Of a stretch of 51,100 nt of DNA, positions 12,192-28,315 are shown piece by piece. Location of the stretch: assembly GCA_903918315.1 (NCBI GenBank), contig CAIXEA010000181.1:1-51100 (forward strand), written 5' to 3'. Both the position numbers and the translations under genes were made by a program. The notes under the pieces are model-generated. The model was not told where the DNA came from. It did not search any database and saw only the letters and a program-made list of their open reading frames with translations. The stretch comes from an uncultured Acetobacteraceae bacterium (GTDB lineage: Bacteria; Pseudomonadota; Alphaproteobacteria; Acetobacterales; Acetobacteraceae). The stretch's first letter is position 1, and every line of letters begins with the position of its first letter.

Positions 12192-12248
12192 GCCCCTTGA
12201 CGTCCCCCCGCCGGAGTGGACCATGCGTCCCATAACGGGAGGACGCCA

Positions 12249-13709
12249 ATGCCAGCACGCTCCGGCAAAGACTACCTGGACCGCCTGCGGGCCCAGGATA
12301 CCGAGGTCTGGTTGCGCGGGGAGCGCGTCAGGGACGTCACCAGCCATCCTGGGCTGAGCGGCGGCGCCCGCGCCATCGCCTCCCTCTACGATCAGCAGAT
12401 GGACCCGGCGCTGCACGACTCCATGACCTATGTCTCACCGGCAACCGGCGATCGGCTGGGCCTGTCGTTCATCATTCCCCGCACGCAGCAGGATCTGGAA
12501 AATCGCCGGGTGATGATGCTGAACTGGGCACGCACGACCTGCGGCATGATGGGTCGTTCCCCGGATTTCATGAATGTGACTTATGCCGCCTGGGCGGGGG
12601 CGGCGGATTATTTCGGCCAGGGCAGACCCGACTATGCCGAGAATATGCGCCGCTATTACGCGTATATCAGTGAGAACGATCTCGTCCTCACGCACGCGCT
12701 GATCAACCTGCAACGCAGCCGCACCGTCGATGGTGCCTTCAACCTGCAGGAGGGGACGGCCTTGCAGGTGGTGAAGGAAACCTCCGCCGGTCTGGTCGTG
12801 CGCGGCGCGCGGGTGCTGGCCACGCTGGGCCCGCTGTCCGATGAGATCGCGGTCTATTCCCCCCGCCTCGGCCAGCACACCGAGGCCCACAGCCCCTTCG
12901 CGCTGAGCTTCGCCATCCCCTCCGCCACGCCGGGGCTGCGTTTCCTGTGCCGCGACTCCTTCGATTATGGCAAGTCGCATTTCGACCATCCGCTGGGCTC
13001 GCGGTTTGAGGAAATGGACAGCATCGTCTTCTTCGACGACGTGGTCGTGCCCTGGGATCGGGTGTTCATCTACGGCAGCGTCGATCTGCTGAATAACACC
13101 GCCTACAAAACCTTTTCCTCGGCGCATACCTCGCATCAGGGCGCGGCCAAGAACCTCGCCAAATGCGAGTTGGTGCTGGGCGTGGCCCTGCTGATGACCG
13201 AGACGCTGGGCAATGCCCATCTGCCGCATTCGCAGGAGCGCATCGGCGAGCTGATGATGTACACTGAGCTTATGCGCGCATGCATCCGCGCGTCCGAGGC
13301 CGATGCCAGGCTGAACGAATATGGCGTGATGTGCCCGGCGCCCCTGCCGGCGGAAACCACCCGCAACCTGTTCATGACCGCCTATCCGCGGATGGCGGAG
13401 ATCCTGCAATTGCTGGGCTCGTCCAGCCTGATGATCCTGCCGACGGAGGCGGATATGGACGCCCCCCTGGCTGGCCATATTTCTCAGTATCTGGCGACCG
13501 ATAGCAGCGATGCGCGGTCGCGGATCAAGCTGTTCCATCTGGCCTGGGATATCGCCTGCAGCTCCTTCGGGCAGCGGCAGGTGCTGTATGAGCGTTTCTT
13601 CGCCAGCGACCCGTTGACCCGCGCCCGGGCTTTGGCCGCCATCTTCCCGAAGCAGGAAATCACCGACCGCGTGCTGGCCTTCCTCAACCAGGAGGACGGG
13701 CCGTCATGA
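12249..13709 (+). CDS. 4-hydroxyphenylacetate 3-monooxygenase oxygenase-like (HpaB family)
   Basis: A 486-residue flavin-dependent hydroxylase-like protein of the HpaB family. The N-terminus has SGKDYLDRLRAQDTEVWLRG, as in HpaB enzymes. The middle has IVFFDDVVVPWDRVFIY, a conserved family segment, and the C-terminal helical part follows to about residue 480. Such enzymes use reduced FAD from a separate reductase to hydroxylate phenolics or related substrates. No reductase (HpaC) gene is nearby, so it would need one encoded elsewhere. GGGAGGA lies upstream of the chosen ATG 12249. The next gene, a VOC enzyme, starts within its stop (ATGA). The pair suggests an aromatic ring hydroxylation and cleavage or similar step (inference). 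Confidence 0.8.
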   Translation: MPARSGKDYLDRLRAQDTEVWLRGERVRDVTSHPGLSGGARAIASLYDQQMDPALHDSMTYVSPATGDRLGLSFIIPRTQQDLENRRVMMLNWARTTCGMMGRSPDFMNVTYAAWAGAADYFGQGRPDYAENMRRYYAYISENDLVLTHALINLQRSRTVDGAFNLQEGTALQVVKETSAGLVVRGARVLATLGPLSDEIAVYSPRLGQHTEAHSPFALSFAIPSATPGLRFLCRDSFDYGKSHFDHPLGSRFEEMDSIVFFDDVVVPWDRVFIYGSVDLLNNTAYKTFSSAHTSHQGAAKNLAKCELVLGVALLMTETLGNAHLPHSQERIGELMMYTELMRACIRASEADARLNEYGVMCPAPLPAETTRNLFMTAYPRMAEILQLLGSSSLMILPTEADMDAPLAGHISQYLATDSSDARSRIKLFHLAWDIACSSFGQRQVLYERFFASDPLTRARALAAIFPKQEITDRVLAFLNQEDGPS

Positions 13710-14191
13710 CTCATCGGACGATGTATCTCGGCCATGTGAACCTCTATGTCCGCGATGCCGACAAGGCGCGTGACTGGTACGAAAAGGTGCTGGGCCTGCA
13801 CACCTATCATCACCGCCCCGGCGTCGCGGCCTTCATGTCGGCCGACCTGGACCAGTCGCATGAGGTCGCCCTGATGCAACTCGGCCCTGAAGCGCCCTTG
13901 CAGCCTCGGGGCCAGGTCGGCCTGAACCATCTTGCCTGGATGGTCGATAGTCTCGCGGCGCTGGCGGTGTCGTATCAACGCCTCAAGGACCATGGGGTGA
14001 AGATCGAGGCGATCGCCGATCATGGCATTTCCCTGGGGATTTATTTCCGGGACCCTGATGGCAACGGGCTGGAAGTGTCATACGAATTGCCGCGCGATCA
14101 ATGGCCCAGCCAGGACCAGGTGTTCGGTGTGCCCGCGGAGAGCCGTGGCCGCTTCCCGGGTCCCTGGGACGCCGATCCGGCACGGAAATAA
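13706..14191 (+). CDS. VOC-family metalloenzyme (extradiol dioxygenase/glyoxalase-like)
   Basis: A 161-residue vicinal-oxygen-chelate protein. GHVNLYVRDADKARDWYEKV opens the first beta-alpha-beta module and gives His10. GLNHLAWMV supplies His75, and FRDPDGNGLEVSYE supplies Glu123, the usual two-His one-Glu metal set. The HGISLGIYFRDPDGN segment is close to extradiol catechol dioxygenases, so aromatic ring cleavage is plausible, though the single-domain size also fits other VOC enzymes. It overlaps the HpaB-like gene by four bases and precedes a PEP-mutase-like gene by 11 bases, so the three look co-transcribed. Cytoplasmic. Confidence 0.8.
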   Translation: MTHRTMYLGHVNLYVRDADKARDWYEKVLGLHTYHHRPGVAAFMSADLDQSHEVALMQLGPEAPLQPRGQVGLNHLAWMVDSLAALAVSYQRLKDHGVKIEAIADHGISLGIYFRDPDGNGLEVSYELPRDQWPSQDQVFGVPAESRGRFPGPWDADPARK

Positions 14192-14202
14192 GGAGCGATG
14201 GG

Positions 14203-15081
14203 ATGAACCAGACGACGAAGTTGCGGGCCCTGCTGCGCCAGCCCGGCATGGTCACCGCCCCCGGCGCCTATGACGGGCTGACGGCGATGCTGGTGGCTCA
14301 GGCTGGCTTTCCGGCGGTCTATATGACCGGCGCGGGCACCTCGGTGGCGCAGGGCTACCCGGATTTCGGGTTGCTCACTGGCTCCGAAATGGTGGCCAAC
14401 GGCGCCCGCATGGCGCGCGCGGTCGATGTGCCGGTGATCTGCGACGCCGATACCGGCTATGGCAATGAGCTGAACGTCATCCGCACCGTGCAGGATTACG
14501 AACGCGCAGGCGTGGCGGGCATCCATATCGAAGACCAGGTTTCACCCAAGCGCTGCGGCCATCTCGACGACAAGGAAATCGTCCCGTTGGAGGACTGGAT
14601 CGCCAAGATCCGCGCCGCCGCCGCCGCCCGGCGTGACCCCGATTTTCTGCTGATCGCGCGCACCGACTCCCGCGCGGTGATGGGGTTCGAGGAATCGATC
14701 CGCCGCGCCAATGCCGCGTTGGATGCCGGTGCGGATATGGCCTTTGTCGAGGCCCCGCAGACCATGGACGAGCTGACCGCGGTGCCGAAGCTGGTGAAGG
14801 GCCCGTGTTTGCTGAACGTGGTCTGGGGCGGGAAAACCCCGGATATCGACATGCGCGCGGCGGAGGCGCTTGGTTTCAAACTGGCCATCGTCCCGGCGCT
14901 GCTGCTGATGGCGTCCATAACGGCCTGCGATCAGGCTTTGGCGCGGTTCAAGGCGACCCAGCGCTATCCGGAACAGGGCGCTCTGACGGTGCGCGACGCC
15001 TTCAATCGCGTCGGTGCGGCGGAATGGGGCGTGTTCCGCACGCAGTTCCGGGATGACGATGTGAAGAAAGCGGCGGAGTGA
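14203..15081 (+). CDS. Isocitrate lyase/PEP mutase superfamily enzyme
   Basis: A 292-residue TIM-barrel enzyme of the ICL/PEPM superfamily. The N-terminal TAPGAYDGLTAMLVAQAGF, the VICDADTGYGN metal-binding segment, IHIEDQ, and the SPKRCGH loop with the catalytic Cys are all present. The KRCGH motif is found in 2-methylisocitrate lyases and related oxaloacetate or dimethylmalate-type lyases, so a C-C bond lyase is more likely than a PEP mutase. The substrate cannot be chosen from sequence alone. AAGGAG lies about six bases upstream of ATG 14203. It follows the VOC gene closely and is probably part of the same catabolic operon. Confidence 0.88.
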   Translation: MNQTTKLRALLRQPGMVTAPGAYDGLTAMLVAQAGFPAVYMTGAGTSVAQGYPDFGLLTGSEMVANGARMARAVDVPVICDADTGYGNELNVIRTVQDYERAGVAGIHIEDQVSPKRCGHLDDKEIVPLEDWIAKIRAAAAARRDPDFLLIARTDSRAVMGFEESIRRANAALDAGADMAFVEAPQTMDELTAVPKLVKGPCLLNVVWGGKTPDIDMRAAEALGFKLAIVPALLLMASITACDQALARFKATQRYPEQGALTVRDAFNRVGAAEWGVFRTQFRDDDVKKAAE

Positions 15082-15088
15082 GCCGGCA

Positions 15089-15436
15089 ATGATGTTTATT
15101 GTGCGCACCGAATCCGCAACGCTGGATGCCCCCGGCTGCGCCGTCAAAATGGTCCGCCGCACACCGGCGATCGTCCCCGGCGGTGCGGGGATGACGGATC
15201 ATTTCTGTGAGGGGGAACCGGATGCCGCGCGCGCGGCCGGGCTGGCGGTCGTGGCGGTGCATGATGGCTGGTACGCCGACGATACCGGGGGCGGTGTGGC
15301 TGTCTTCGGGCAGGGCAAATTCTGGGAGGTTCGTCATACCCCGTTTTCCATCCGGGAATCCGATGACGGGGTGGCCGAGGCGGCTGCGGCCAGCGCGGAT
15401 TTGGTCAATGTCCGTGGGGCTATTTTCGGGGTTTGA
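15089..15436 (+). CDS. Hypothetical protein, 115 residues
   Basis: An open frame directly after the PEP-mutase-like gene (7-base gap). The product is soluble with no signal peptide or membrane helix. It has a patch of Gly and Val (DDTGGGVAVFGQGKFWEVRH) and an Ala-rich region near the C-terminus. I do not recognise it. It could be a small downstream member of the operon or a spurious frame in GC-rich DNA; the codon third positions look coding-like but the upstream ribosome binding site is weak. An opposing minus-strand frame covers part of it. Confidence 0.4.
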   Translation: MMFIVRTESATLDAPGCAVKMVRRTPAIVPGGAGMTDHFCEGEPDAARAAGLAVVAVHDGWYADDTGGGVAVFGQGKFWEVRHTPFSIRESDDGVAEAAAASADLVNVRGAIFGV

Positions 15437-15438
15437 TG

Positions 15439-15476
15439 GGCGGGATAGGCCCGCGAACCTTGCCGGTCATCCCGCC
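15439..15476. repeat. Intergenic hairpin with GGCGGGAT/ATCCCGCC arms
   Basis: GGCGGGAT at 15439-15446 pairs with ATCCCGCC at 15469-15476, with a 22-base loop. It lies between the hypothetical frame and the amidohydrolase gene. The arms share the GCGGGAT/ATCCCGC core with the intergenic repeats near 16365, so it may belong to the same element family or act as a transcript-stabilising hairpin. Confidence 0.45.
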
Positions 15477-15516
15477 GGGTCGTAGCCTCCACCCATCGTG
15501 AAAAAGGGTGGAAACC

Positions 15517-16359
15517 ATGCCGATTATCGATGCCCAGGTGCATGCCTATGAGCGCAACCATCCAGGCCGTCCCTGGGCGGCTGTCCTGCATGGCCCGGCC
15601 GAGGTCACCGGTGAGGACATGGTCGCCGCGATGGACGCCGTTGGCGTGGACGGCGCGATCCTGGTCTCCGCCTTCACCATGTACCAATACGATGCCAGCT
15701 ACGCCTTGAGCGTACGCAATCAGTTCCCCGGCCGCTTCGGTGTCGTCAAGCCGGTTAATCCCAACGACCCCGCGGTTGGTGAAACCATCGCCGACTGGAA
15801 GGCCACCCCGGGCACCGTCGGCATTCGGATCATGCTCAATCGTGGCGCGTCGGAAGATCCGGCGGATCCGGGGCTGACTCTGGTGTTGAAAGAAGCTGCC
15901 CGCCATGGCCTGCCGGTCAATTTGCTCTGCTGGGGGCGGCTCGGCCAGGCCGCGCAGATGGCGGCGCGCAATCCCAATACCCGCATTGTGATTGACCATA
16001 TCGGCCTGCAACAACCTTTCGAGCCGCCGGCACCGCCCAACCCTTTCGGTGATCTTCCGGCGGTGCTGGCCCTGGCCGCGCAGCCGAACATCGTGATCAA
16101 GATCTCCGGCGCCTGCACCCTGTCGCATGAGCCGTATCTCTATAACGACATCTGGGACCCGCTCTGCCGCATCTTTGATGCGTTCGGCTTTGACCGTTGC
16201 CTCTGGGGCACCGACTGGACCCGGGCGGTTGAGCTGCTGACCTACGCCCAGGGCGTGGAGCCTTTCCGTCTGACCGATCGCATCTCCGCCAGCGACCGGG
16301 CGATGCTGATGGGGGGGAGTCACCAGCGTGTGTATAACTGGGCGCCGACGAAGGGCTGA
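15517..16359 (+). CDS. Amidohydrolase-2-family TIM-barrel hydrolase
   Basis: A 280-residue metal-dependent hydrolase of the amidohydrolase-2 family (the group that includes aminocarboxymuconate semialdehyde decarboxylase and related hydrolases/decarboxylases). The N-terminus PIIDAQVHAYERNHPGRPW has the first strand with a QVHAY in place of the usual DxHxH. The middle has MDAVGVDGAILVS and VNPNDPAVGE, and the C-terminus has LWGTDWTR, the conserved metal-binding Asp strand. Substrate class is likely a lactone or carboxylated ring compound (inference). It follows the HpaB-VOC-lyase group and precedes a DMT exporter. ATG 15517 has AAAAAGGG about ten bases upstream. Confidence 0.8.
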   Translation: MPIIDAQVHAYERNHPGRPWAAVLHGPAEVTGEDMVAAMDAVGVDGAILVSAFTMYQYDASYALSVRNQFPGRFGVVKPVNPNDPAVGETIADWKATPGTVGIRIMLNRGASEDPADPGLTLVLKEAARHGLPVNLLCWGRLGQAAQMAARNPNTRIVIDHIGLQQPFEPPAPPNPFGDLPAVLALAAQPNIVIKISGACTLSHEPYLYNDIWDPLCRIFDAFGFDRCLWGTDWTRAVELLTYAQGVEPFRLTDRISASDRAMLMGGSHQRVYNWAPTKG

Positions 16360-16364
16360 GCAAA

Positions 16365-16467
16365 GCGGGATGACCGAAGGTGGCATCACCGAAGGTCTGA
16401 ATCCCGCGATCATGCGCCATCGCGGGATGACCGGAGGTGGCATCATCGGAGGTCGTAATCCTGCGAT
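16365..16467. repeat. Two tandem copies of the intergenic repeat (copies 2 and 3)
   Basis: Copy 2 starts at 16365 and runs to about 16411; copy 3 starts at 16422 and runs to about 16467, a period of 57 bases. Each begins GCGGGATGACC, has GAAGGTGGCATCA or GGAGGTGGCATCA in the middle, and ends in a CCCGCGATC or CCTGCGATC. The GCGGGAT start can pair with the ATCCCGC near the end in copy 2, forming a stem. Related bases also occur at 2987-3022. This places a REP-like family between the amidohydrolase and DMT genes. Confidence 0.65.
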
Positions 16468-16481
16468 CGCGCTCTAAAACC

Positions 16482-17366
16482 ATGGCCGGTTCGCCTGGGC
16501 GGCAGTGGGATCGCAACCTGCTGGCGGGAGTGTTTTTCATCTGCCTCTCCGGCGTGACCTCGCCGCTGATGAACGGGTTCGCGAAGCTGCTGGGGGCGCA
16601 TTACAGCTCCTTGCAGGTCTCCTGGGCGCGGGCCTTCGGGCATGTGCTGTTCATGCTGATCGTGTTCCTGCCGCGGTTCGGGATGAAGATGCTACGGACC
16701 AGGCGGTTCGGGATGCATCTCGCCCGTTCCGCCAGCCTGTTCATCTCGAACCTTGTCTATTTCCTCGCCATCACCTTCATCCCCATCGGCAAAGCCGCCT
16801 CCATCAACATGATCGGCCCCCTGCTGGTCGCGGCCTTGGCCTGGCCGATGCTGGGGGAGCGGACCAATCCCCGCCGGGTGGCGGCGGTATGCGTGGGATT
16901 TCTGGGCGTGCTGATCATCATCCGCCCGGGGACCGAGGTGTTCCATTGGGCGGCGCTGCTGGTGATTTTCAGCGCCCTGATGAACGGGTTCTACCAGATC
17001 TTCACACGGCGGATTTCGGACACGGAAAGCGCCCCGACCCAGGCCATTTACAGCTCCGTCGTTGGGGCCTTCGGGATGCTGCTGGTGCTGCCCTTTGTCT
17101 GGAAGACGCCGGAGAACTGGGCCGATCTGGCGTTTTTTTGTAGCATGGGGGTGCTGGGGGCGATCAGCCATTATTTCGTGGCGCTGGCGCTGGGATTCGC
17201 CCCGGCCAATATCGTGACGCCGTTTCAGTACACGCAGATGCTGGGCTCGGTCCTGGTGGGCTACCTGATTTTCGGCGACTTCCCGGATGCGCTGACCTGG
17301 GCCGGTGCCGGGGTCGTGGTGGCCTCGGGGTTGTATATGGGCTGGACCCAGACCCGGCGTGCGTAG
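16482..17366 (+). CDS. DMT-family (EamA) transporter
   Basis: A 294-residue integral membrane protein with two EamA-type halves and about ten hydrophobic helices. The N-terminal half has LLAGVFFICLSGVTSPLMNG and the second half begins near the loop after WAALLVIFSALMNGFYQIF. EamA proteins export amino acids, metabolites or cofactors. It has no associated regulator. The start is ATG 16482 (MAGSPGRQWDRN); an upstream GTG in the repeat would add 15 residues that look like non-coding repeat. It is downstream of the amidohydrolase and may export the pathway product or a similar compound. Confidence 0.85.
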   Translation: MAGSPGRQWDRNLLAGVFFICLSGVTSPLMNGFAKLLGAHYSSLQVSWARAFGHVLFMLIVFLPRFGMKMLRTRRFGMHLARSASLFISNLVYFLAITFIPIGKAASINMIGPLLVAALAWPMLGERTNPRRVAAVCVGFLGVLIIIRPGTEVFHWAALLVIFSALMNGFYQIFTRRISDTESAPTQAIYSSVVGAFGMLLVLPFVWKTPENWADLAFFCSMGVLGAISHYFVALALGFAPANIVTPFQYTQMLGSVLVGYLIFGDFPDALTWAGAGVVVASGLYMGWTQTRRA

Positions 17367-17460
17367 ATTCCGGCGATTCCTGCCGGGCCCCGATGCTGGA
17401 TAAACAGACTGCGCGTCCTTTGCATTCCGCCGGACAGAACCTGGTCATTCAGAAAAATCC

Positions 17461-18513
17461 ATGCCCCAACCCGTCCAGCTGATGTCTGTCGTGACCTCCG
17501 TCCCGCCTTTTTGCTTTGAGCAGCGGGACGTCGCCGCCGCGGCGCATCGCGGCTTCTCAGCGCGGTATCCCGATTTCGAGCGGCTGGCCCGGGTGTTTGA
17601 AACATCCGGCATCCGGCGCCGCTATGCCGTCCGCCCGATCGACTGGTATTTTGAGCCGCTGGGCTGGCCGGAACGCAGCGCGGCCTATCTCGACGGGGCC
17701 GTCGCGCTGTTCGCCGATGCGGCGGCGCGGGCGCTCGATGCCGCCGGCATTCAGGCCCGGGACGTGGATACGATCGTCACGGTCTCCTCGACCGGCATCG
17801 CCACGCCCAGCATCGATGCGCGCGCCACCAGCCGCATGGGGTTCAATACCGCGGTCGAGCGGGTGCCGGTGTTCGGACTGGGTTGCGCCGGTGGCGTCAG
17901 CGGCCTCTCGCTGGCGGCCCGCATGGCGGAGTCCCGCCCCGGCAGCGTCGTGCTGATGGTCGCGGTCGAAACCTGCAGCCTGGCCTTCCGGCTGGACGAG
18001 CTGACCCCGGCGAATATCGTGGCCACGGCGCTGTTCGGTGACGGCGCGGCCGCCTGCGTGCTGCGCACCGGGGAGGACGGCCTCGCCGCGGTGGAAATGA
18101 GCGGCCAGCACACCTGGCCCGACACGCTCGACATCATGGGTTGGTCGGTGGATCGGCAGGGGTTCGGGGTGATTTTCGACCGCGCCATTCCGCCCTTCGC
18201 CGAGGCCCAGATGGCGCCCGCCATCGCCGGCATTCTGGCGCGGTTCGGACTGGAATTGGCCGATTTTGATCGCCTGGCCTTCCACCCCGGCGGCAAAAAG
18301 GTGGTCACTGCTTTGGAACGGGCTTTCGCTTTGCAGCAGGGCACGCTCGACCACGAGCGGACCATCCTGGCCGAATACGGCAATATGTCGGCGCCGACGG
18401 CCCTGTTCGTGCTGGAACGCCTCATCGACGACGGCCTGCCGGCACGAACCTTGCTGACGGCCATGGGACCTGGTTTCGTGACCAGCTGTATTTCCCTCAC
18501 GAGGGCCGCGTGA
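17461..18513 (+). CDS. Type III polyketide synthase (chalcone/stilbene synthase family)
   Basis: A 350-residue type III PKS. The catalytic triad is complete: Cys142 in GLGCAGGVSG, His275 in AFHPGGKK, and Asn308 in YGNMSAPT. GDGAAACVL and the PGFVTSC-like C-terminal GPGFVTSCISL segment are also typical. The enzyme extends an acyl-CoA starter with malonyl-CoA to make pyrones, resorcinols or phloroglucinols. The four-base overlap with an isoprenylcysteine-type methyltransferase parallels BpsA-BpsB of Bacillus, which makes alkylpyrone methyl ethers (established), so a methylated alkyl product is likely but not proven. Upstream is the DMT gene. The next gene after the methyltransferase is a DHA2 exporter. 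Confidence 0.93.
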   Translation: MPQPVQLMSVVTSVPPFCFEQRDVAAAAHRGFSARYPDFERLARVFETSGIRRRYAVRPIDWYFEPLGWPERSAAYLDGAVALFADAAARALDAAGIQARDVDTIVTVSSTGIATPSIDARATSRMGFNTAVERVPVFGLGCAGGVSGLSLAARMAESRPGSVVLMVAVETCSLAFRLDELTPANIVATALFGDGAAACVLRTGEDGLAAVEMSGQHTWPDTLDIMGWSVDRQGFGVIFDRAIPPFAEAQMAPAIAGILARFGLELADFDRLAFHPGGKKVVTALERAFALQQGTLDHERTILAEYGNMSAPTALFVLERLIDDGLPARTLLTAMGPGFVTSCISLTRAA

Positions 18514-19016
18514 TCCCAGCTGTTGTCCTGCTGACCTGCGTCACGGCCGAACGGCTGGGGGAGCTCTGGCTCGCCCGGCGCAACACCGCCGCGCTGATTG
18601 CCCGCGGCGCGTTCGAGGTCGCACCGCGGCACTATCCCCTGATCGTCCTGTTGCATGCTGCGTGGCTGGCGAGTCTCTGGGCGTTCGGCTGGGACAGGCC
18701 GCTCGATCCGCTCTGGCTGCTGGTGTTTCTGGCGCTGCAGGGTGGCCGGTTCTGGGTTCTGGCGACGCTGGGCCGCCGCTGGACGACGCGGATTATCGTC
18801 CTGCCCAATGCGCCGCTGATCGCCGCGGGACCGTACCGCTACGTCTCACATCCCAACTACCTCGTGGTTATCGGCGAAATCGCGGCCCTGCCGCTGTGCC
18901 TGGGCCTGCCGGGCCTGGCGCTGCTGTTCTCGGCTGCCAATCTCGCGGTTCTGGCCATTCGCGTGCGGGCGGAGAGTGCCGCGCTGCAGGGGCCTCGCGG
19001 TGTCGCCTATCGCTAA
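18510..19016 (+). CDS. Isoprenylcysteine carboxyl methyltransferase-family protein
   Basis: A 168-residue integral membrane methyltransferase of the ICMT family. It has several hydrophobic helices; GPYRYVSHPNYLVVIGEIAALP, near residues 109-130, carries the RYxxHPNY motif that binds SAM. In Bacillus the similar protein BpsB O-methylates the pyrone made by the type III PKS (established), so it likely modifies the product of the PKS upstream. The start GTG 18510 overlaps the PKS stop (GTGA). The C-terminus overlaps the start of the DHA2 exporter by 17 bases. Confidence 0.88.
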   Translation: MIPAVVLLTCVTAERLGELWLARRNTAALIARGAFEVAPRHYPLIVLLHAAWLASLWAFGWDRPLDPLWLLVFLALQGGRFWVLATLGRRWTTRIIVLPNAPLIAAGPYRYVSHPNYLVVIGEIAALPLCLGLPGLALLFSAANLAVLAIRVRAESAALQGPRGVAYR

Positions 19017-20910
19017 CGCGGAAGGTCGCGCGCCGGTAACGGCCGCGACCTGGTTCGGCTTCGGGGCGATGTGCATCGGCATGTTCATGGCCATACTCGA
19101 CGTGCAGATCGTCGCGACCTCCCTGCCGGACATCCAGGGCGCGCTGGGCATCGCGCCGGACCAGATGAGCTGGGTGCAAACCGCCTACCTGATCGCCGAG
19201 GTCGTCGCGATTCCCCTGACCGGCTTTCTGACCCGGCTGTTGAGCATGCGCTGGCTGTTCGTGGGCGCGGTGGCCTGTTTCACCCTCGCCTCCCTGGGCT
19301 GCGCCACCAGCGGCGATTTTGGCACGCTGATCGCCTGGCGCATTGTGCAGGGCTTCTCCGGCGGGACGTTGATTCCAGCGGTGTTCTCGGCCGTGTTCCT
19401 GCTGTTTCCGGTGCGCCGCCAGGGGATCGCCACCATGCTGGCCGGGGTGCTGGCGGTCCTGGCGCCAACGGTCGGGCCGGTCGCCGGCGGCTGGATCACC
19501 GGCACCTATTCCTGGCACTGGCTGTTTCTGATCAACGTCGCGCCCGGCATCGCCGCGGCGATCCTGGCCGCCGCCCTGCTGCCGCGATCCCCGCCCCGTC
19601 TGACGGAGGCAAGGACGCTGGACGCCCCGTCGCTGGCGATGCTCGCGCTGGCTTTGGCGGCGCTGGAGATTGCCTTGAAGGAGGCGCCGCAGCGCGGCTG
19701 GGCCTCGGGCCTGGTGATCGGGCTTCTGCTTCTCAGCCTGGCCAGCGGCGCGGGCTTCGCCGCCAGAACGCTGCGATCCGGCCATCCGATCGTCGACCTC
19801 CGGGCTTTTTCCGACCGGAATTTCACTATCGGCTGCGTTCTGAGTTTCGTGCTGGGGATCGGCCTGTTCGGATCGGTCTACCTCATGCCCGTCTTCCTCG
19901 CCTTCGTCCGCTCCCACGACCCCTGGGAGATCGGCGTGATCATGCTGGTCACCGGGGTGGCGCAGCTGCTGGCGGCGCCCGTTGCCGTGACGCTGGAACA
20001 AAGGGTCGATGCCAGGCTGCTGACCTTTGCCGGGTTTGGGCTGTTCGCGGCGGGCCTGGGCCTGAGCGCCTGGCAGAGCCCTCAGACTGACTACGATGGC
20101 ATGTTTTGGCCGCAGGTCCTGCGCGGCCTGGCGATCATGTTCTGCCTGTTGCCCCCGACCCGGCTGGCTTTGGGCAATCTGGCGCCGGCCCGCGTCCCGG
20201 ATGCCAGCGGCCTGTTCAACCTGATGCGCAATCTCGGCGGCGCCATCGGCCTGGCCCTGATCGACACGGTGATTTACAGCCGCACGACCCTGCATGGCCT
20301 GGCGATCGTGGAGCGGTTGAAGGCCGGCGACGCCGAGGCCGCCGCGTTTATCGGCCTGTCCGCCAGGGCCTTCGCCGAACGTCCCGCCGGCCCGCCTGAC
20401 GCGGCGGCGATGGCGCTGCTCAAGCCGCTGATCGAAAAAGCCGCTTTGACACAGGCGATCAATGAGGCCTGGGCGATGATCGCCGTTCTGACGGTCGTGG
20501 CCATGGTGATTGTGCTCTTCGCCAGGAAAACGGCCGCGGACGGCGCCCTGGCGGCGGGGGGAGGTCGCTTGTCTCGAGTCTGTCGCTCAGACCAATTTGT
20601 CCCGCCTGAGCGAAGCGATGAAGCTGTTCCGCGCCTGGGCCAACGGCAAAGACCTGACGCCGAGCGAGACGCAGTACGTCGCCCGAACGGGGCAGCGTCA
20701 GACCTTGCAATTCAGCAAAAGCGGCGACCAAACGATCGAGCGCTTGTATCGCACCCATTGGGTCTCGCCGGCGCTGTCGGAGAAAAAACGCGAGAAGCTG
20801 GCGGAGAAAGCCAGCCGACCGCCGGACCTCGTGGTGATTCAGCCGTTGAACCAGGACTGGACCTGCCATCGCTGCGCCGGCACCGGCGGGTTTCTGGTGA
20901 TGGAGAATGA
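19000..20910 (+). CDS. DHA2 (EmrB/QacA) MFS transporter with an abnormal C-terminal run-on
   Basis: A 14-helix MFS exporter of the DHA2 family. The N-terminal FMAILDVQIVATSLPDIQ and the GGWITGTYSWHWLFLINVAPG segment are typical. The normal end is near LFARKTAADG (about residue 510-520), but this frame runs a further ~110 residues with low-complexity sequence, ending at 20910. That tail overlaps the zinc-ribbon gene by about 290 bases in a different frame. Frame 0 has a TGA at 20607-20609. A run of six G at about 20556-20561 is a likely site of a one-base indel. The start is GTG 19000, with AGGGG upstream and overlapping the methyltransferase. Its neighbours suggest export of the PKS product. 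Confidence 0.8.
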   Translation: MSPIANAEGRAPVTAATWFGFGAMCIGMFMAILDVQIVATSLPDIQGALGIAPDQMSWVQTAYLIAEVVAIPLTGFLTRLLSMRWLFVGAVACFTLASLGCATSGDFGTLIAWRIVQGFSGGTLIPAVFSAVFLLFPVRRQGIATMLAGVLAVLAPTVGPVAGGWITGTYSWHWLFLINVAPGIAAAILAAALLPRSPPRLTEARTLDAPSLAMLALALAALEIALKEAPQRGWASGLVIGLLLLSLASGAGFAARTLRSGHPIVDLRAFSDRNFTIGCVLSFVLGIGLFGSVYLMPVFLAFVRSHDPWEIGVIMLVTGVAQLLAAPVAVTLEQRVDARLLTFAGFGLFAAGLGLSAWQSPQTDYDGMFWPQVLRGLAIMFCLLPPTRLALGNLAPARVPDASGLFNLMRNLGGAIGLALIDTVIYSRTTLHGLAIVERLKAGDAEAAAFIGLSARAFAERPAGPPDAAAMALLKPLIEKAALTQAINEAWAMIAVLTVVAMVIVLFARKTAADGALAAGGGRLSRVCRSDQFVPPERSDEAVPRLGQRQRPDAERDAVRRPNGAASDLAIQQKRRPNDRALVSHPLGLAGAVGEKTREAGGESQPTAGPRGDSAVEPGLDLPSLRRHRRVSGDGE

Positions 20911-21151
20911 GGGCCCCGCGTGCCTGCGCTGCGTGGGGCTGGATGACCTGGTCGGTTTGCCGGCGGGGGACGCGCTGTTATCGCGCCGGGCCAAGGCCCG
21001 CAGTGCCCGAAGCGCGGTGGTCGTGCGTTTCAGCCGCAGCCGCAAGCAGTATGAACGGCAAGGCCTGCTGGTTGAACCGGACGTGCTGGCGGCGGTCGAA
21101 AGCGAACTGGAGACGGAGCGGCGGGAGAAAGCTGCGAAGAAGACCAGATAG
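20618..21151 (+). CDS. Zinc-ribbon protein of unknown function
   Basis: A 177-residue soluble protein. A helical N-terminal region (KLFRAWANGKDLTPSETQY) is followed by a zinc-ribbon with two CxxC pairs (CHRC and CLRC, about 20 residues apart), then GDALLSRRAKA, a basic segment with SRSRKQYERQGLLVEP, and a Lys-rich end. The LPAGDALLSRRAKARS segment and the layout resemble the family that precedes DUF2293 domains, but I could not confirm it. No membrane segment. The start is unsettled: ATG 20618 begins at MKLFRAW, but the frame is open further upstream and the true start may lie there. It is read in the same direction as the exporter and precedes two amidohydrolase genes. Confidence 0.65.
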   Translation: MKLFRAWANGKDLTPSETQYVARTGQRQTLQFSKSGDQTIERLYRTHWVSPALSEKKREKLAEKASRPPDLVVIQPLNQDWTCHRCAGTGGFLVMENEGPACLRCVGLDDLVGLPAGDALLSRRAKARSARSAVVVRFSRSRKQYERQGLLVEPDVLAAVESELETERREKAAKKTR

Positions 21152-21174
21152 CCGCCCCTTGCCACAAACCCGCC

Positions 21175-21192
21175 CCGGGATGACGATCCCGG
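21175..21192. other. Short perfect hairpin upstream of the amidohydrolase
   Basis: CCGGGAT (21175-21181) and ATCCCGG (21186-21192) form a 7-base stem with a 4-base loop (GACG). It lies 24 bases after the zinc-ribbon gene stop and about 27 bases before the next start. It could end the upstream transcript weakly or regulate the amidohydrolase pair. No T run follows it. Confidence 0.35.
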
Positions 21193-21218
21193 AAACGGTA
21201 CGGCAGGAGGGTAACCCC

Positions 21219-22370
21219 ATGAAATACGATCTGGTCCTGACGGGCGGGGAGGTCCTCGACCCCAGCGCCGGCTACAGCGGTATCATGGATATCGGCATCA
21301 ACGCCGGCAAAATCGCCGCCGTCGCCCCGGCCATTCCGGCCGAGCAGGCGCGGCGCTCCATCAGCGCCAAGGGGTTCCTGGTGACCCCCGGCCTCGTCGA
21401 TATGCACGCGCATGTCTTTGTGAACGGCCATGATATGGGCGATCGCACCGATCATTTCTGCAGCTGCAGCGGCGTGACCACGATGTGCGACGCGGGCAGC
21501 GCGGGCTCGTCCAACTTCGCCGGGCTGCGGCAGGTGCTGGACAACGATGTGCGCACGCGGGTGCGGGCCTTCGTGAACCTGTCGGCCATCGGGATCACCG
21601 GCACCTCCCGCGGCGGGGAGTTGCAGCATTTTCCCTATGCCGACCCCGAGGGCTGCGCGCGGACCATCAGCGAAAACCCGGATCTGGCGATTGGCGTGAA
21701 ACTGCGCTTCGGACCGGGGCTGGTGTGGGAGTATTCGGCCGAACCGGTCAAGCTCGCGCGCCGCACCGCCGACATGGCGGGCGGGGTGCCGATGATGATG
21801 CACATCACGGATTCGCCGGTGCCGCTGCCTGATCTGATCGAACACATGAAGCCCGGCGACATCGTCACCCACTGCTACCACGGCCGCGCCCACGGGATCA
21901 TGGGGCAGGAGAAGCAGTTCCTGCTGCCGCAGGTGATCGAGGCGCAGAAAGCCGGCATCATCTTCGATTGCGCGCATGGGCGGAACCACTTCAACTTCCG
22001 CATGATCGAGCGGGCGCTGGATCAGGGCTTCCTGCCCGACACGATCTCCACCGATCTGACCATGATGAGCGCCACCAAGGGCCCGGTCTGGGACCTGCCG
22101 ACGACGATGTCGAAGCTGCTGCATTTCGGCCTGCCGCTGGCCGAGATTATCCGCCGCTCCACCGCCGCCCCGGCGAAAATCATGGGCTATGAGGGTACGG
22201 TCGGCACTCTGAAGCCGGGGGCGAACGCGGATATCTCGGTCTTCGAGCTGCGCGATGGCGCGTTCGAACTGCGCGATAGCGACGGCGACACCATCACCGC
22301 CAAACGCCGCCTGATCCCGCAAATGACCCTGAAGGACGGCCGCGTCTGGTACCAGCGCCCAGCTGAATAA
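21219..22370 (+). CDS. Amidohydrolase/deacetylase-family metallohydrolase
   Basis: A 383-residue amidohydrolase-superfamily enzyme of the EF_0837/AHA_3915 type (COG3964). It opens YDLVLTGGEVLDPSAGYSG, then has DMHAHVFVNG with the HxH metal pair. MMMHITDSP and HCYHGRAHG carry further His ligands, FDCAHGRNHF follows, and STDLTMM gives the metal-binding Asp. The C-terminus has the RSTAAPAKIMG and LKPGANADISVFEL segments. Related enzymes act on N-acyl or cyclic amides. AGGAGG upstream supports ATG 21219. It is 14 bases before a D-aminoacylase-type gene, and the two likely act on related substrates. Confidence 0.87.
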   Translation: MKYDLVLTGGEVLDPSAGYSGIMDIGINAGKIAAVAPAIPAEQARRSISAKGFLVTPGLVDMHAHVFVNGHDMGDRTDHFCSCSGVTTMCDAGSAGSSNFAGLRQVLDNDVRTRVRAFVNLSAIGITGTSRGGELQHFPYADPEGCARTISENPDLAIGVKLRFGPGLVWEYSAEPVKLARRTADMAGGVPMMMHITDSPVPLPDLIEHMKPGDIVTHCYHGRAHGIMGQEKQFLLPQVIEAQKAGIIFDCAHGRNHFNFRMIERALDQGFLPDTISTDLTMMSATKGPVWDLPTTMSKLLHFGLPLAEIIRRSTAAPAKIMGYEGTVGTLKPGANADISVFELRDGAFELRDSDGDTITAKRRLIPQMTLKDGRVWYQRPAE

Positions 22371-22384
22371 GAGAGGAACCAATC

Positions 22385-24094
22385 ATGTCCGACCTCGTCA
22401 TCCGCCATGGCACCATCGTCGATGGCACCGGCGCCGCCTCCTACGAAGCCGATATCGCGGTCAAGGACGGCCGCATCACGACCATCGGCCCCAACCTGCC
22501 GCGCGGGACCAAGGAAATCGACGCCCGTGGCAAGATCGTCACGCCTGGCTTCGTCGATCCGCATTCCCACTACGACGCCCAGGCGACCTGGAGCAGCCGA
22601 ATCACCCCGTCGTCATGGAATGGCGTCACGACCACGCTGATGGGCAATTGCGGCGTCGGCTTCGCCCCCTGCCATCCCGACCAGCGCGACATGCTGGTCA
22701 AACTGATGGAGGGGGTGGAGGACATCCCCGAAGTCGTGCTGACCGAGGGCTTGCCCTGGAACTGGACCAGCTTCCCCGATTACCTCAACGCGCTCGAAGC
22801 CCGTCCCTACGATCTGGATATCGCCACACAGGTTCCGCATGCCGCATTGCGGACCTATGTGATGGGCGCACGCGGCCTGGCCCGCGAACCCGCGACCCAG
22901 GCCGATAGCGACGCGATGGCGCGTCTGGCGGCCGAAGGGGTGAGGGCTGGGGCACTGGGCTTCTCGACCTCCCGCTCGATCAACCACAAGACCAAAGCCG
23001 GGGAGCTGATCCCGACGCTGCAAGCCGAAGAGGCCGAACTCACCACCATCGGCCAGGCGCTTGGCGCCATTGGTGCGGGCTGGCTGCAGGTGATCTCCGA
23101 CTTCGATGACGCCGAGCGCGAATTCGCCATGCTGCGCCGGGTGACGGCGGCCTCGGGCCGCGGTATGGCGATCACCATCCTGCAACGGGACTCCAAGCCC
23201 GAAGAATGGCGCCGCGTCACTGGCTGGATCGCTGAGGCCAATGCCGAGGGGGTCGGCATGCTCGGCCAGGTGCTGACGCGCGCCACCGGCATTCTGCTGG
23301 GCTTCGAGATTTCCCAGAACCCGTTCATTGACCGTCCCAGCTACACCGCCCTGGCCGGCTTGCCGCATGCGGAGCGGATCGCGGCGTTGCGCCAGCCAGA
23401 GGTGCGCGCGCGCATTCTGTCGGAAAGTATCGGCGACGAGGTCCTGGCCCGCCGCGTATCCCGCTGGGACCGCATTTTCCCGCTGCATGATCGACCGGAT
23501 TACGAGCCGGCACCGGAACACAGCATCGCCTTCCGTGCGGCCCGCGAAGGCCGGGACCCCGCGGATCTGGCCTATGACCTGCTGCTGGAGAAGGATGGCA
23601 AGGCGATCCTGTATCGCCCGCTGTCGAACTATACCGAGGGTAATCTTGATTCCGTGCATGACATGCTGGCCCATCCCGCGACCATCGTCGGTCTGGGCGA
23701 TGGCGGCGCGCATGTGGGCATTCTGTGCGATTCCAGCGCGATCACCACGATGCTGACGCATTGGACCCGCGACCGCACCCGGGGCGCGAAATTCGGCCTG
23801 CCCTGGGCGATCCGGCGAGTGACCTCGGATTCCGCCGCAGCCATCGGGCTGCATGATCGCGGCGTTCTGAAACCAGGCTTCAAAGCCGACATCAACGTCA
23901 TCGACTACGATCGGCTGGCGCTCCATGCGCCACAGGTGGTTTATGACCTGCCGAGCGGCGGGCGCCGGGTGATCCAGAAAGCGGCGGGGTACGAGGCGAC
24001 AATTGTCTCCGGCGTGCCGGTCTACCGGGAAGGGGAGGCGACCGGTGCGCTGCCGGGGCGCCTGATCCGCGGCGCGAAGTCGGCGCCGATCTGA
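22385..24094 (+). CDS. N-acyl-D-amino-acid deacylase-family amidohydrolase
   Basis: A 569-residue amidohydrolase of the D-aminoacylase group. The N-terminus [20 protein letters not shown], the metal motif [11 protein letters not shown] and NCGVGFAPC (with the family Cys) are present. [13 protein letters not shown] with THWTRDR is the conserved C-terminal metal segment. [13 protein letters not shown] gives the terminal strand. Relatives release fatty or acetyl groups from N-acyl-D-amino acids or act on similar amides. It follows the first amidohydrolase by 14 bases and ends the run; the gap after it contains an inverted-repeat element. Cytoplasmic. Confidence 0.9.
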
Positions 24095-24139
24095 CCGCCG
24101 CATGGTGGCCGTCACCTTGAGGTTGGCGGCGGGATTTTG

Positions 24140-24212
24140 ACACAGACGATGACAGATCGGGATCGATGCGCCGCGCGGTACCATCGAGTCTGATCCGTGT
24201 TCATCTGTGTTA
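24140..24212. repeat. Imperfect 73-base inverted-repeat element
   Basis: Left arm ACACAGACGATGACAGATCG is partly complementary to the right-hand ATCCGTGTTCATCTGTGTTA (reverse complement begins ACACAGATGAACACGGATC). The arms meet around a CGATG/CATCG core. The whole 24140-24212 stretch could fold as a long imperfect hairpin. It sits between the D-aminoacylase and molybdoenzyme genes, where 190 bases otherwise hold no gene. It may be a MITE- or REP-like element. Confidence 0.5.
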
Positions 24213-24284
24213 AACGCGGTATCGCGATCAGCGCCCATCCTGGACGGTGGCGCGCCTTATCTCTGTGCTCACGGAATATACCCC

Positions 24285-26540
24285 ATGGCATTTATCGGCC
24301 AATCACTCCTCCGCACGGAGGACCAACGCTTTCTCACCGGCACCGGCCGCTATGTTGAGGATATCGACTTCCCGGACCAGCTCTGGGCCCAGGTCGTGCG
24401 GTCACCGCATGCGCATGCGCAGATCACGGGTCTCGACGCCGAAGCCGCCCGCGCCATCCCGGGGGTTCTGGCCGTCTATACGTATGACGATATCGCCCAT
24501 CTCGGGTTGATGGGTTGCCCGACGCAGGTCGCCTCGGTCGAGCCGATGCGCATCCCGCCCCGGCCGGCCTTGGCTCGCGCGCGGGTCCGCCATGTCGGCG
24601 ATCCCGTGGCCTTCGTCGTCGCCGCAACCCATGCGGCTGCGCGGGATGGGGCCGAAGCGGTGCTGGTCAGTTACGACCCGCTGCCCTGTGTCGTTGACGG
24701 ACCCACCGCCAGGGCGGCCGATGCCCCGGTGCTATGGGACGATATCCCGGGCAATCTGTCATATCGGTTCCAGAAGGGTGATGCCACCGCCGTGCAAGCC
24801 GCATTGGCCTCGGCGGCTCATGTTGTCGAAATGGATCTTATCAACAATCGCCTCGTGATCGCGTCGACCGAGAATCGCGGCGCCATTGCCCGCTTCGGCG
24901 ACGACGGGTTTGAGCTGATCCTCTCCGCCGCCAGCGTGCATGCCATCCGCGATCAGCTCATGGGCGTGTTCAATGAACCCGCTGAACGTATCCGCGTTAT
25001 CGCCCCGGATGTCGGCGGCGGGTTTGGGATCAAGAACGCGCTCCATTCGGAGTTGGTGTTGCTGCTGCACGCCGCCCGCGACCTCCGACGACCGGTGAAA
25101 TGGATCAGCGAGCGGGGTGAGGATTTCATCAGTACCGCGCAAGGCCGGGACAACGTCACCAAGGCGCGCCTGGCGCTGGATGCGCAGGGTCATTTCCTGG
25201 CGCTGGATGTGGCGACCACGGCCAATCTGGGGGCCTATTTGTCCTCTGGTGGGCCCGGCAGCTCCACCAACGCCCCGGCCAACGCCATGGGCAGCGGCTA
25301 TGTCATTCCCGCCATCTTCATGGAGGTGCATGGCGTGTTCACCAACACTTTGCCGATCGACGCCTATCGCGGGGCGGGGAAGCCGGAGGTGAATTATCTG
25401 ATGGAGCGGCTGGTCGATCGCGCCGCCCGCCAGCTAGGCATGGATCCGGTCGAACTGCGGCGGCGCAATCTGGTTCGATCGTTTCCATACAAAAAGGCCC
25501 TCGGCACGACCATCGACGGCGGCCGCTTTGCCGCGAACATGGACGATGCGGTGGCCAAGGCGGATCGCGCCGGATTCCCCGCCCGTCGTGCGGCGAGCGA
25601 AGCGCGAGGATTGCGCCGCGGGATGGGCATTGCCTGCTTCCTCGAAACCGCCCGCGGCGCCCCGAATGAGGGTGCGGAACTGCGCTTTCAGGCCGACGGC
25701 CGCATTGCTCTGGTCGTCGGCACACAGTCCAATGGTATGGGCCACGAAACCACCTATCCGCAGATCGCCGCCGATTTTCTGGGCATGCCGCCGGAGGCCT
25801 TTGTCTATGTTCAGGCTGATACCGGCCTGGTCCGCGCCGGCAATGGCCATGGCGGGGCGCGGTCGATGCATATGGGCGGCGCGGCTTTGGTGAAGACCAT
25901 CAACACCACGCTGGACAAGGCCCGCCTGATCGCAGCGCGCCTGCTGCAGGCGGAGGCGGTGGACTTCGCCGATGGCCGCTTTTCCGTCGTCGGTGATCCC
26001 GCCCGCGGCATCGGCCTGCTGGATGTCGCGCATGCCGCCCGCGACCAGGGCGACAGCCTGGACACCTATGTCTGGAATTTGCTCGACATCATCACCTTCC
26101 CCAATGGCTGCCATATCGCGGAGCTCGAGGTTGATCCCGATACCGGCTTCGTGCGGCTGGATCGGTATACCGCGGTCGATGACTACGGCACCCTGATCAA
26201 CCCCATGCTGACTTTGGGCCAACTGCATGGCGGCGTCGCTCAGGGCATTGGCCAGGCGGTGCTGGAACACGTCGTCTATGACCCGCTTTCGGGCCAGTTG
26301 CTGAGCGGCTCGTTGCTGGACTACGCGCTCCCCCGTGCGGATGACATGCCGGATTTCGACGTGACCCTGACCGGGGTGGCGACGGATGCCAACCCGCTGG
26401 GCGTCAAGGGTGTGGGCCAGGCCGGCGCCATCGCGGCCCCGCAGGCGTTGGTGCTGGCTGTCATCGATGCGCTGGGCATCGACACGATTGACATGCCGTT
26501 GACGCCGGAGCGGGTCTGGCGGGCGATCCGGGGCGGCTGA
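24285..26540 (+). CDS. Xanthine-dehydrogenase-family molybdopterin-binding subunit, Gln at the active-site Glu
   Basis: A 751-residue large subunit of the xanthine dehydrogenase/CO dehydrogenase (CoxL-like) family. It opens FIGQSLLRTEDQRFLTGTGRYVEDI, as in CoxL-type subunits. GGGFGIKNALHSE is the first molybdopterin segment, and YRGAGKPEVNYLMERLVD is the usual AYRGAGRPE motif region. The C-terminal motif normally reads KGVGEAG with the catalytic Glu. Here it reads KGVGQAGAIAAP, with CAG (Gln) at 26418-26420, residue 712. The Fe-S and FAD subunits are not next to it. Catalysis is therefore doubtful or altered. ATG 24285 is chosen; the upstream in-frame start adds 26 unlikely residues. The TPP gene follows by 59 bases. 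Confidence 0.88.
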   Translation: MAFIGQSLLRTEDQRFLTGTGRYVEDIDFPDQLWAQVVRSPHAHAQITGLDAEAARAIPGVLAVYTYDDIAHLGLMGCPTQVASVEPMRIPPRPALARARVRHVGDPVAFVVAATHAAARDGAEAVLVSYDPLPCVVDGPTARAADAPVLWDDIPGNLSYRFQKGDATAVQAALASAAHVVEMDLINNRLVIASTENRGAIARFGDDGFELILSAASVHAIRDQLMGVFNEPAERIRVIAPDVGGGFGIKNALHSELVLLLHAARDLRRPVKWISERGEDFISTAQGRDNVTKARLALDAQGHFLALDVATTANLGAYLSSGGPGSSTNAPANAMGSGYVIPAIFMEVHGVFTNTLPIDAYRGAGKPEVNYLMERLVDRAARQLGMDPVELRRRNLVRSFPYKKALGTTIDGGRFAANMDDAVAKADRAGFPARRAASEARGLRRGMGIACFLETARGAPNEGAELRFQADGRIALVVGTQSNGMGHETTYPQIAADFLGMPPEAFVYVQADTGLVRAGNGHGGARSMHMGGAALVKTINTTLDKARLIAARLLQAEAVDFADGRFSVVGDPARGIGLLDVAHAARDQGDSLDTYVWNLLDIITFPNGCHIAELEVDPDTGFVRLDRYTAVDDYGTLINPMLTLGQLHGGVAQGIGQAVLEHVVYDPLSGQLLSGSLLDYALPRADDMPDFDVTLTGVATDANPLGVKGVGQAGAIAAPQALVLAVIDALGIDTIDMPLTPERVWRAIRGG

Positions 26541-26599
26541 CCCTTCCTTTCCCCGAGGGGGCGCGCCACACTCCGCCCAACACAGCCGGGAGAGCGTTC

Positions 26600-28288
26600 A
26601 TGACCAACCCACCCCGCATCGCCGCGGAAGAGTATCTCGACGCCCTCGCCGCGCATGGGATCGAGCATCTGTTCTGCAACCCAGGCACCGACTTCGCCCC
26701 GATCGTCGAGGCTTATGCCCGTGCCGCCAAAACCAATGCCATCGTGCCGCGCCCGATGGTCGTGCCGCATGAGAACTGCGCGGTGGGCATGGCGCATGGC
26801 TACACCATGGTCTCCGGCCGGGCGCAGGCCGTCATGCTGCATACGAACGTCGGCACGGCCAACGCTATCAACATGCTCATCAACGCCAGCCGCGATCGGG
26901 TGCCGATGCTGCTGACGTCTGGCCGCACCCCCTTCACCGAAACCGGGGCGGAGGGCTCGCGCAGCGTGCACATCCACTGGGCGCAGGAGATGTATGACCA
27001 GGCCGGCATGCTGCGCGAGATGGTCAAGTGGGATTACGAAATGAAGCGTGGCGATCAGGCCGGCACGGTGGTGGATCGGGCGTTGGAAATCGCCCATGCG
27101 TCCCCGCAAGGCCCGTCCTATCTGTCATTGCCGCGGGAGGTGTTGGGGGAGGTCGTGGGGCCCTGCGCCTCAAACCGGGCGCAACGGGCCGGGCCACGGG
27201 CGCCGATCCCGGCTTCGGATGATATCGAAATTCTGGCGGGCTGGATCGCGCAGGCGAAGAACCCGCTGATCATCACGGGCATGCTGGGCAAGGATCCGCG
27301 TGACAGCATCGCGCTCGAACAGTTGATCGACCGCTGGGCCATTCCCGTCATTCCTTACAATACCCGCTATTTCGCGCTGGGATCGGACCATCCGATGTTC
27401 CAGGGTTCCGCCCCCGGCCCGTTGCTGGCCGAGGCCGATTTGGTCATCGTCTTCGAAACGGACGTGCCCTGGCTTCCCAGCAAGGAATCCCCCCCTTCCA
27501 CCGCCCGAATCGTTCAGATCGGTGAGGACCCGCTGCACGCCCGCCTGCCGATGCGCAGTTTTCCGTCCGACATGACGATCACCGCGACGGCGCTATCGGT
27601 CCTCAATGCGCTGAATGAAGAACTGCGGACATATGCGATGGCGCATGTTTCCGCGCGATTGGACCGTTTGACGGCCCGGTCAGAATCCCTGCACGCCGGC
27701 TGGCGCGATGAGGTCGAGAAAGCAGGGCAGGCCGAAACTATTTCCTTGCCCTGGCTGAACCATTGCCTGCGGGCGGTCATCGATCGCAACGCCATCGTCA
27801 TCAGCGAATATTCCTTCCGTCAGGAATATTGCCCCCTGACCCGTCCCGGCAGCCTGTTCGCACTTAGTTCCGCCGGTGGCCTGGGCTGGGGCTTCCCCGC
27901 GGCCCTGGGTGCCAAGCTGGCGGCACGCAGCCGGATGGTCGTTTCGGTTCTCGGCGATGGGGCCTATATGTTCTCCAACCCCACCGCCTGCCATTATGTC
28001 GCGCAGATGCAGGCGTTGCCGGTTCTGACGGTGATCTACAACAATGCCCTGTACGGCGCGGTGCGCCGGGCGACATTGGAAATGTACGGCAACGGTACGG
28101 CAGCGGAAGGTGACGGGCGGCTGATGGCCGATCTGCCGGCGGCGAATTTTGAAAAGATCGTGCTGGCACATGATGGCCATGGGGAGCGGGTGGAGCGGCC
28201 GGCGGATTTACCCGCCGCCTTGCAGCGCGCCGTGGCGGCGGTGCGGGCCGGGCAGCAGGCGTTGGTGAATGTGATTTGCCCCCCGTGA
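26600..28288 (+). CDS. Thiamine-diphosphate-dependent enzyme (acetolactate-synthase-like)
   Basis: A 562-residue ThDP enzyme with the three-domain plan. The N-terminal domain has HLFCNPGTDFAPIVEAY and the activating Glu in VVPHENCAVGMAHGYT. The middle domain follows from about residue 200. The C-terminal domain has VLGDGAYMFSNPTACHY, then IYNN, as the GDG-x~25-N metal/ThDP motif. It is like acetolactate-synthase or benzoylformate-decarboxylase-type enzymes, but the active-site residues that would decide between them are not clear by eye. It has its own upstream GGAGAG. The next gene, an esterase, follows by 27 bases, so the group is likely one operon. Confidence 0.87.
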   Translation: MTNPPRIAAEEYLDALAAHGIEHLFCNPGTDFAPIVEAYARAAKTNAIVPRPMVVPHENCAVGMAHGYTMVSGRAQAVMLHTNVGTANAINMLINASRDRVPMLLTSGRTPFTETGAEGSRSVHIHWAQEMYDQAGMLREMVKWDYEMKRGDQAGTVVDRALEIAHASPQGPSYLSLPREVLGEVVGPCASNRAQRAGPRAPIPASDDIEILAGWIAQAKNPLIITGMLGKDPRDSIALEQLIDRWAIPVIPYNTRYFALGSDHPMFQGSAPGPLLAEADLVIVFETDVPWLPSKESPPSTARIVQIGEDPLHARLPMRSFPSDMTITATALSVLNALNEELRTYAMAHVSARLDRLTARSESLHAGWRDEVEKAGQAETISLPWLNHCLRAVIDRNAIVISEYSFRQEYCPLTRPGSLFALSSAGGLGWGFPAALGAKLAARSRMVVSVLGDGAYMFSNPTACHYVAQMQALPVLTVIYNNALYGAVRRATLEMYGNGTAAEGDGRLMADLPAANFEKIVLAHDGHGERVERPADLPAALQRAVAAVRAGQQALVNVICPP

Positions 28289-28315
28289 GTTGTTGTACAT
28301 GAACTGGAGTTCGCA

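Follow-up and report, generated by a model that had tools for sequence, protein, structure and literature searches.

In this study, we examined a three-gene locus encoding a type III polyketide synthase (PKS), an ICMT-family membrane methyltransferase and a DHA2/EmrB-type exporter of the major facilitator superfamily (MFS). It lies in a 51,100-nucleotide stretch of DNA from an uncultured Acetobacteraceae bacterium (GCA_903918315.1, contig CAIXEA010000181.1), hereafter the window. All three genes are on the + strand. The PKS gene (17461..18513) encodes 350 aa with matches to Pfam Chal_sti_synt_N/C, and the methyltransferase gene (18510..19016) starts with GTG and encodes 168 aa with a Pfam ICMT match of 2.4e-24. 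The exporter gene has a GTG start candidate, and the part of it that is common to relatives (~515 aa) spans 19000..20550. As the sequence-only reading had claimed, the coordinates give an overlap of 4 bases (GTGA) between the PKS and ICMT genes and of 17 bases between the ICMT and exporter genes. A candidate ATG start at the same 17-base overlap was found for 6 of 20 relatives' exporters (L035, L038, L047, L050, L051, L052). The G+C content of the trio is 0.683, compared with 0.647 for the window. A scan of positions 16300-21300 returned no promoter-like sites (0.4 expected) and five terminator-like sites (4.2 expected).

Two sets of relatives were compared. The even sample came from 385 evenly drawn genomes of the class, of which 86 had a match at E <= 1e-20 and 72, the window's own included, had a strong match to this PKS clade. 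Of its 89 match rows, 71 were analysed as loci. The rows excluded are that of the window's genome, the fragment G251:C222 and 16 whose E was no better than 6.8e-52, which presumably represent further type III PKS or KAS-III lineages. The named loci are the best 80 of at least 576 confirmed in GTDB genomes; this set is biased to kin, may overlap with the even-sample genomes, and is alphaproteobacterial by record title, with one exception that looks mis-binned. The exporter was scored as not assessable where there was no exporter match and less than 1200 bases of record downstream (6/71 even-sample and 4/80 best named loci).

We found the ICMT gene directly downstream of the PKS gene, on the same strand, in 69 of the 71 even-sample loci; of the two exceptions, one record stops 52 bases past the PKS gene and the other has the ICMT gene 585 bases downstream. 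It is also directly downstream in 75 of the best 80 named loci, and the five PKSs without it belong to four R. etli-type loci (L039-L042) and one metagenome-assembled genome (MAG; L061). An exporter lies within 2.5 kb of the pair in 7/71 even-sample loci, six times downstream on the same strand and once upstream on the opposite strand, and two of the six are separated from the pair by a desaturase-like gene (L028, L129). Of the best 80 named loci, 35 carry the exporter as third gene and 2 carry a divergent one, and the third-gene exporters are ~58-77% identical per aligned segment. If only loci whose PKS shares 60% identity or more with that of the window are counted, a same-strand trio is present in 28/53 best named and 3/6 even-sample loci. 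The trio is annotated on plasmids of Phyllobacterium sp. 628 and Rhizobium sp. BG4, and a Stenotrophomonas plasmid carries a 34% identical PKS with ICMT. Three Bradyrhizobium loci (L079, L091, L093) have an extra DHA2-like match (22-24% identical) ~200 bases upstream of the PKS gene, besides the closely related one downstream. With the ICMT gene directly behind the PKS gene in nearly all loci, the grouping is not due to chance. The PKS and ICMT genes form a stable core, and the exporter is a third partner particular to certain lineages. This supports the earlier view that the trio is one unit, with the exporter recurring as third gene among the PKS kin. Conservation of the trio in related genomes had been named beforehand as the test on which that view could fail; the trio recurs and the view survives, but in the clade as a whole only a minority of loci have the exporter.

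The PKS gene is the only PF02797 match in the source genome (5.04 Mb, 241 contigs). Its product is a thiolase-fold enzyme with a Cys-His-Asn triad, which identifies it as a type III PKS. The complete triad that had been read from the sequence was found at C142/H275/N308, and it is identical in 80/80 best named and 71/71 even-sample loci. A further residue, W228, is invariant in the same 151 relatives (80/80 and 71/71). Nearest to it, among the enzymes found, are type III PKSs of Rhizobium, of which RePKS of R. etli is probably one, and Pks11, an alkylpyrone synthase. By predicted fold it matches a long-chain alkylpyrone synthase best. The methyltransferase belongs to the ICMT family by its ICMT domain and membrane fold, and the model for true protein-S-isoprenylcysteine O-methyltransferases (NF040696) gave 19.6 bits, below its cut-off of 160.

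The exporter scored 408.8 bits against TIGR00711 (efflux_EmrB; cut-off 230.2), which places it in the DHA2/EmrB subfamily. It had been thought to reach 20910, but we found that its own sequence stops near 20550. Trio exporters of 19 of 20 relatives end within ~40 residues of this point, L033 having a longer tail, and the exporter frame loses its codon-position GC pattern at ~20520-20640, where another frame takes over. In the sister genome G415, the exporter gene encodes 520 aa and ends in a stop; behind it come a spacer and a next gene that is longer than in the window. Of this region the window is missing 219 bp, which hold the exporter stop, the spacer and the beginning of the gene behind it, and the junction lies at 20545..20550, where the two BLAST segments share 6 bases. 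Therefore, the window's exporter has no native stop, and its frame reads on, out of phase, into the following gene. The + strand continuation at 20551..20910 overlies that gene and is not native exporter sequence; the last ~120 codons of the frame are the next gene's sequence read out of frame. The open frame with the shortened next gene (20510..21151, + strand) lies outside the unit, has no Pfam match, and is 98% identical to the G415 gene from 20618 on. The 219-bp difference may be a true deletion or an assembly fault. Since all transporter sequence common to relatives is present, the exporter may still work.

G415 belongs to the same genus, and its PKS, ICMT and exporter are 99%, 98% and 99% identical to those of the window. 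Synonymous changes exceed nonsynonymous ones in each gene (18/2 for the PKS, 8/3 for ICMT, 25/6 for the exporter), which fits purifying selection on all three. Within the genus, a PKS at least 75% identical was found in 3 of 33 genomes (G000, G415, G004), each with ICMT and exporter; a fourth genome, G413, has a PKS of 43% identity. The trio genes of G004 are split over two short contigs, without the window's neighbour genes. The PKS tree (112 rows, built by a quick method, with several long outside branches) has no starred set, among those that take in half of its rows or fewer, to which the window PKS belongs. The trio label requires 18 changes on this tree, where shuffled labels average 31.9 (0/500 as low), and at least 11 gains or losses are made necessary by starred branches. 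Thus, the exporter was gained or lost repeatedly and is nevertheless strongly clustered. The patchy presence in the genus, together with tree neighbours from several orders, suggests horizontal movement of the unit. In stretches of G001, G004, G007, G010 and G408 around the counterpart of the amidohydrolase gene that follows in the window, where an empty site of the trio might be seen, no other window gene was matched, apart from one 31% match. Two close-kin trio PKSs, in MAGs labelled Candidatus Kuenenia, Planctomycetota (L086) and Rhizobium sp. Q54 (L095), adjoin the Sphingomonadales-labelled L072 in the tree, and this placement suggests that their contigs are mis-binned or mislabelled.

PKS-ICMT pairs are an already known kind, as in BpsA-BpsB and SrsA-SrsB, and the window pair has the same gene order. 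In Bacillus subtilis, BpsA-BpsB is a two-gene operon of a type III PKS and a methyltransferase that makes pyrones; it resembles the window in this gene content, and the available passages of PMC5686519 name no exporter. A Paenibacillus plasmid PKS (L179), which is not BpsA and has no ICMT match, falls outside the clade in the tree. In Streptomyces griseus, SrsA-SrsB-SrsC combines a PKS and an ICMT-family methyltransferase (PMC6669644, as available). Its third gene is a monooxygenase, where the window has an exporter, and the product is a modified alkylresorcinol. A plasmid of Streptomyces sp. NBC_01237 (L178) has a similar layout: a PKS 39% identical to the window's stands in line with ICMT and a frame for a flavin-type oxidoreductase. 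This PKS is very close to Pks11 (4.5e-126). Pks11 itself (4jao/4jat), an alkylpyrone synthase of Mycobacterium tuberculosis, is 30% identical to the window PKS. The exporter shares the TIGR00711 family with EmrB/DHA2 efflux pumps, and no HlyD/EmrA-type family was found among the 15 window proteins scanned with Pfam.

RePKS probably belongs to the window's PKS clade. As summarised in a review (Jeya 2012, in the part of PMC6274091 available), it makes pyrones in vitro, including a heptaketide one that takes one acetyl-CoA and six malonyl-CoA, and also accepts C4-C18 acyl-CoAs. The PKS of R. etli p42d is 70% identical to the window's over the full length. In R. aethiopicum SEMIA 4074, which is R. 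etli-like, the only two PF02797 matches are L042 (70%) and L101 (59% to the window PKS). The p42d copy (L023, R. etli CFN 42) is solitary, whereas the window PKS has both an ICMT and an exporter gene beside it. A response-regulator gene follows the PKS in L023, and the solo PKSs of L039-L042 are likewise ~70% identical to the window's.

Taken together, these data make it fairly probable that the locus is a three-gene unit for the synthesis, methylation and export of an alkyl-pyrone, possibly a resorcinol. The data presented here show the gene order, the overlaps, the intact catalytic residues and the predicted folds, a conserved pair and, among kin, a conserved trio, and few amino-acid changes relative to the sister genome. 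The PKS would load an acyl-CoA, probably of long chain, on C142 and extend it with two or three malonyl-type units to a cyclised alkyl-alpha-pyrone and perhaps a resorcinol as well. The ICMT-type enzyme, itself embedded in the membrane, would then transfer a methyl group from S-adenosylmethionine to a ring hydroxyl of the greasy product, and the DHA2 pump would move the methylated product out of the cytoplasmic membrane. We infer the substrate, ring type, O-methylation, transport direction and cargo of this scheme; the PKS product is the putative cargo by linkage, in the form of gene order and distance correlation.

Several observations weigh against this proposal. No exporter match lies near the pair in 58/65 assessable even-sample loci, in searches with only two DHA2-family queries, which would miss other exporters; this indicates that the product does not generally need this pump. 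A P. zundukense plasmid carries the PKS-ICMT pair without an exporter, and export may be impaired in this strain because the exporter tail is disturbed. The likeness to RePKS is drawn through candidate genes for it (p42d, L042 and L101). The scarcity of exporters among evenly sampled loci, like the forced gains and losses of the trio label, would also suit a general multidrug pump that follows the pair by chance and has no tie to the product. We regard such a chance neighbour as highly improbable, given the similar exporters at the same place in 35/80 best named loci, the recurring 17-base overlap and the clustering of the trio label on the tree. Pairwise distances over 35 trio loci also argue for a tie (PKS-DHA2 r = 0.85, ICMT-DHA2 0.69, PKS-ICMT 0.65; each 0/2000 permutations as high), although these correlations are inflated by shared ancestry.

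The nature of the product can be read in two other ways. The PKS could form an alkylresorcylic acid that the ICMT-type enzyme decarboxylates and methylates to a methoxy-alkylresorcinol, as SrsB reportedly does after SrsA in Streptomyces griseus. We hold this to be rather unlikely. It draws on the srsABC layout of L178, as that operon is outlined in PMC6669644, and on W228, which would also speak against a pyrone. This residue falls at the position of ArsB Trp281 and ArsC Gly284, an equivalence made through Pks11 and PMC5916927; in the passages available, that paper describes Trp at this position as one that ArsB needs to make resorcinols and that SrsA, PKS10 and PKS11 share. However, Pks11 and DpgA carry this Trp too, and Leu takes its place in the resorcinol synthase CylI, so that W228 does not settle the product; RePKS, moreover, is reported to yield pyrones (PMC6274091, as available). 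The RePKS heptaketide also raises the prospect of a small, polar pyrone built from acetyl- and malonyl-CoA and exported as a soluble antibiotic or signal, and a diffusible compound would suit a drug-type exporter. This is improbable, since a lipid substrate would be the more natural match for a membrane-embedded ICMT, the best fold match of the PKS is a long-chain enzyme, and RePKS takes longer acyl-CoAs too. An alkyl-pyrone remains our preferred product.

The literature covered (titles, abstract starts and passages) described no product or DHA2 exporter for an alphaproteobacterial PKS-ICMT-exporter trio, nor did it record the conserved pairing of PKS-ICMT with a DHA2 exporter in alphaproteobacteria. 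The trio leads to the prediction that a methylated lipid pyrone or resorcinol is secreted by some members, and the pump is the part on which to test it. The Bradyrhizobium type III PKS BRADO0151 would fall in the window's PKS clade. Its Tn5 mutant had no symbiotic defect according to the portion of PMC3899966 available, so a role outside symbiosis is possible.

The third slot varies among relatives. It holds an exporter, a flavin adenine dinucleotide (FAD)-dependent oxidoreductase of the DAO family in place of the exporter (13/80 best named loci, mostly Rhizobium: L081, L083, L085, L087, L089, L090, L092, L101, L105, L106, L107, L109, L112), or a desaturase plus exporter (2/71 even-sample loci). 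In one lineage (L028:2259-9715, genome G027), a LuxR-type regulator and an autoinducer synthase lie directly upstream of the PKS, ICMT, desaturase-like and DHA2 genes. Because this unit sits directly behind a LuxR-LuxI pair, its product might be a density-controlled secreted signal or antimicrobial. More broadly, the locus might represent a release system dedicated to an O-methylated lipid pyrone and spread horizontally among alphaproteobacteria that live with plants or in soil, with an ancestral pair and a swapped third slot. We offer this picture as a speculation that is rather doubtful as a whole. The LuxI/LuxR link is not a general feature: with the L028 query, LuxI was found in 1/71 even-sample loci (L028 itself) and 0/80 best named loci. 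A second, weaker LuxI/LuxR match lies farther upstream in L028.

The sequence-only reading had also pointed to a DMT exporter just upstream. An EamA/DMT transporter gene is indeed present 94 bases upstream of the PKS gene (16437..17366, + strand), but it is not conserved beside the unit and we judged it to lie outside. G000 and G415 are the only genomes in which it was seen next to the trio. With the window's DMT as query, a DMT gene was found near the PKS in just one of the best 80 named loci, L051, on the opposite strand, 30% identical and ~7 kb off. In G004, G007, G009, G410 and G416, which belong to the genus, a 76-82% identical DMT gene lies on a 3.7-10 kb stretch without a PKS, ICMT or DHA2 match. 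The + strand genes around the unit (12216-31362) look catabolic; they include an HpaB-type hydroxylase, a glyoxalase-type protein, a phosphoenolpyruvate mutase/isocitrate lyase-type protein, amidohydrolases, xanthine-dehydrogenase-type and other molybdopterin enzymes, and a thiamine pyrophosphate enzyme.

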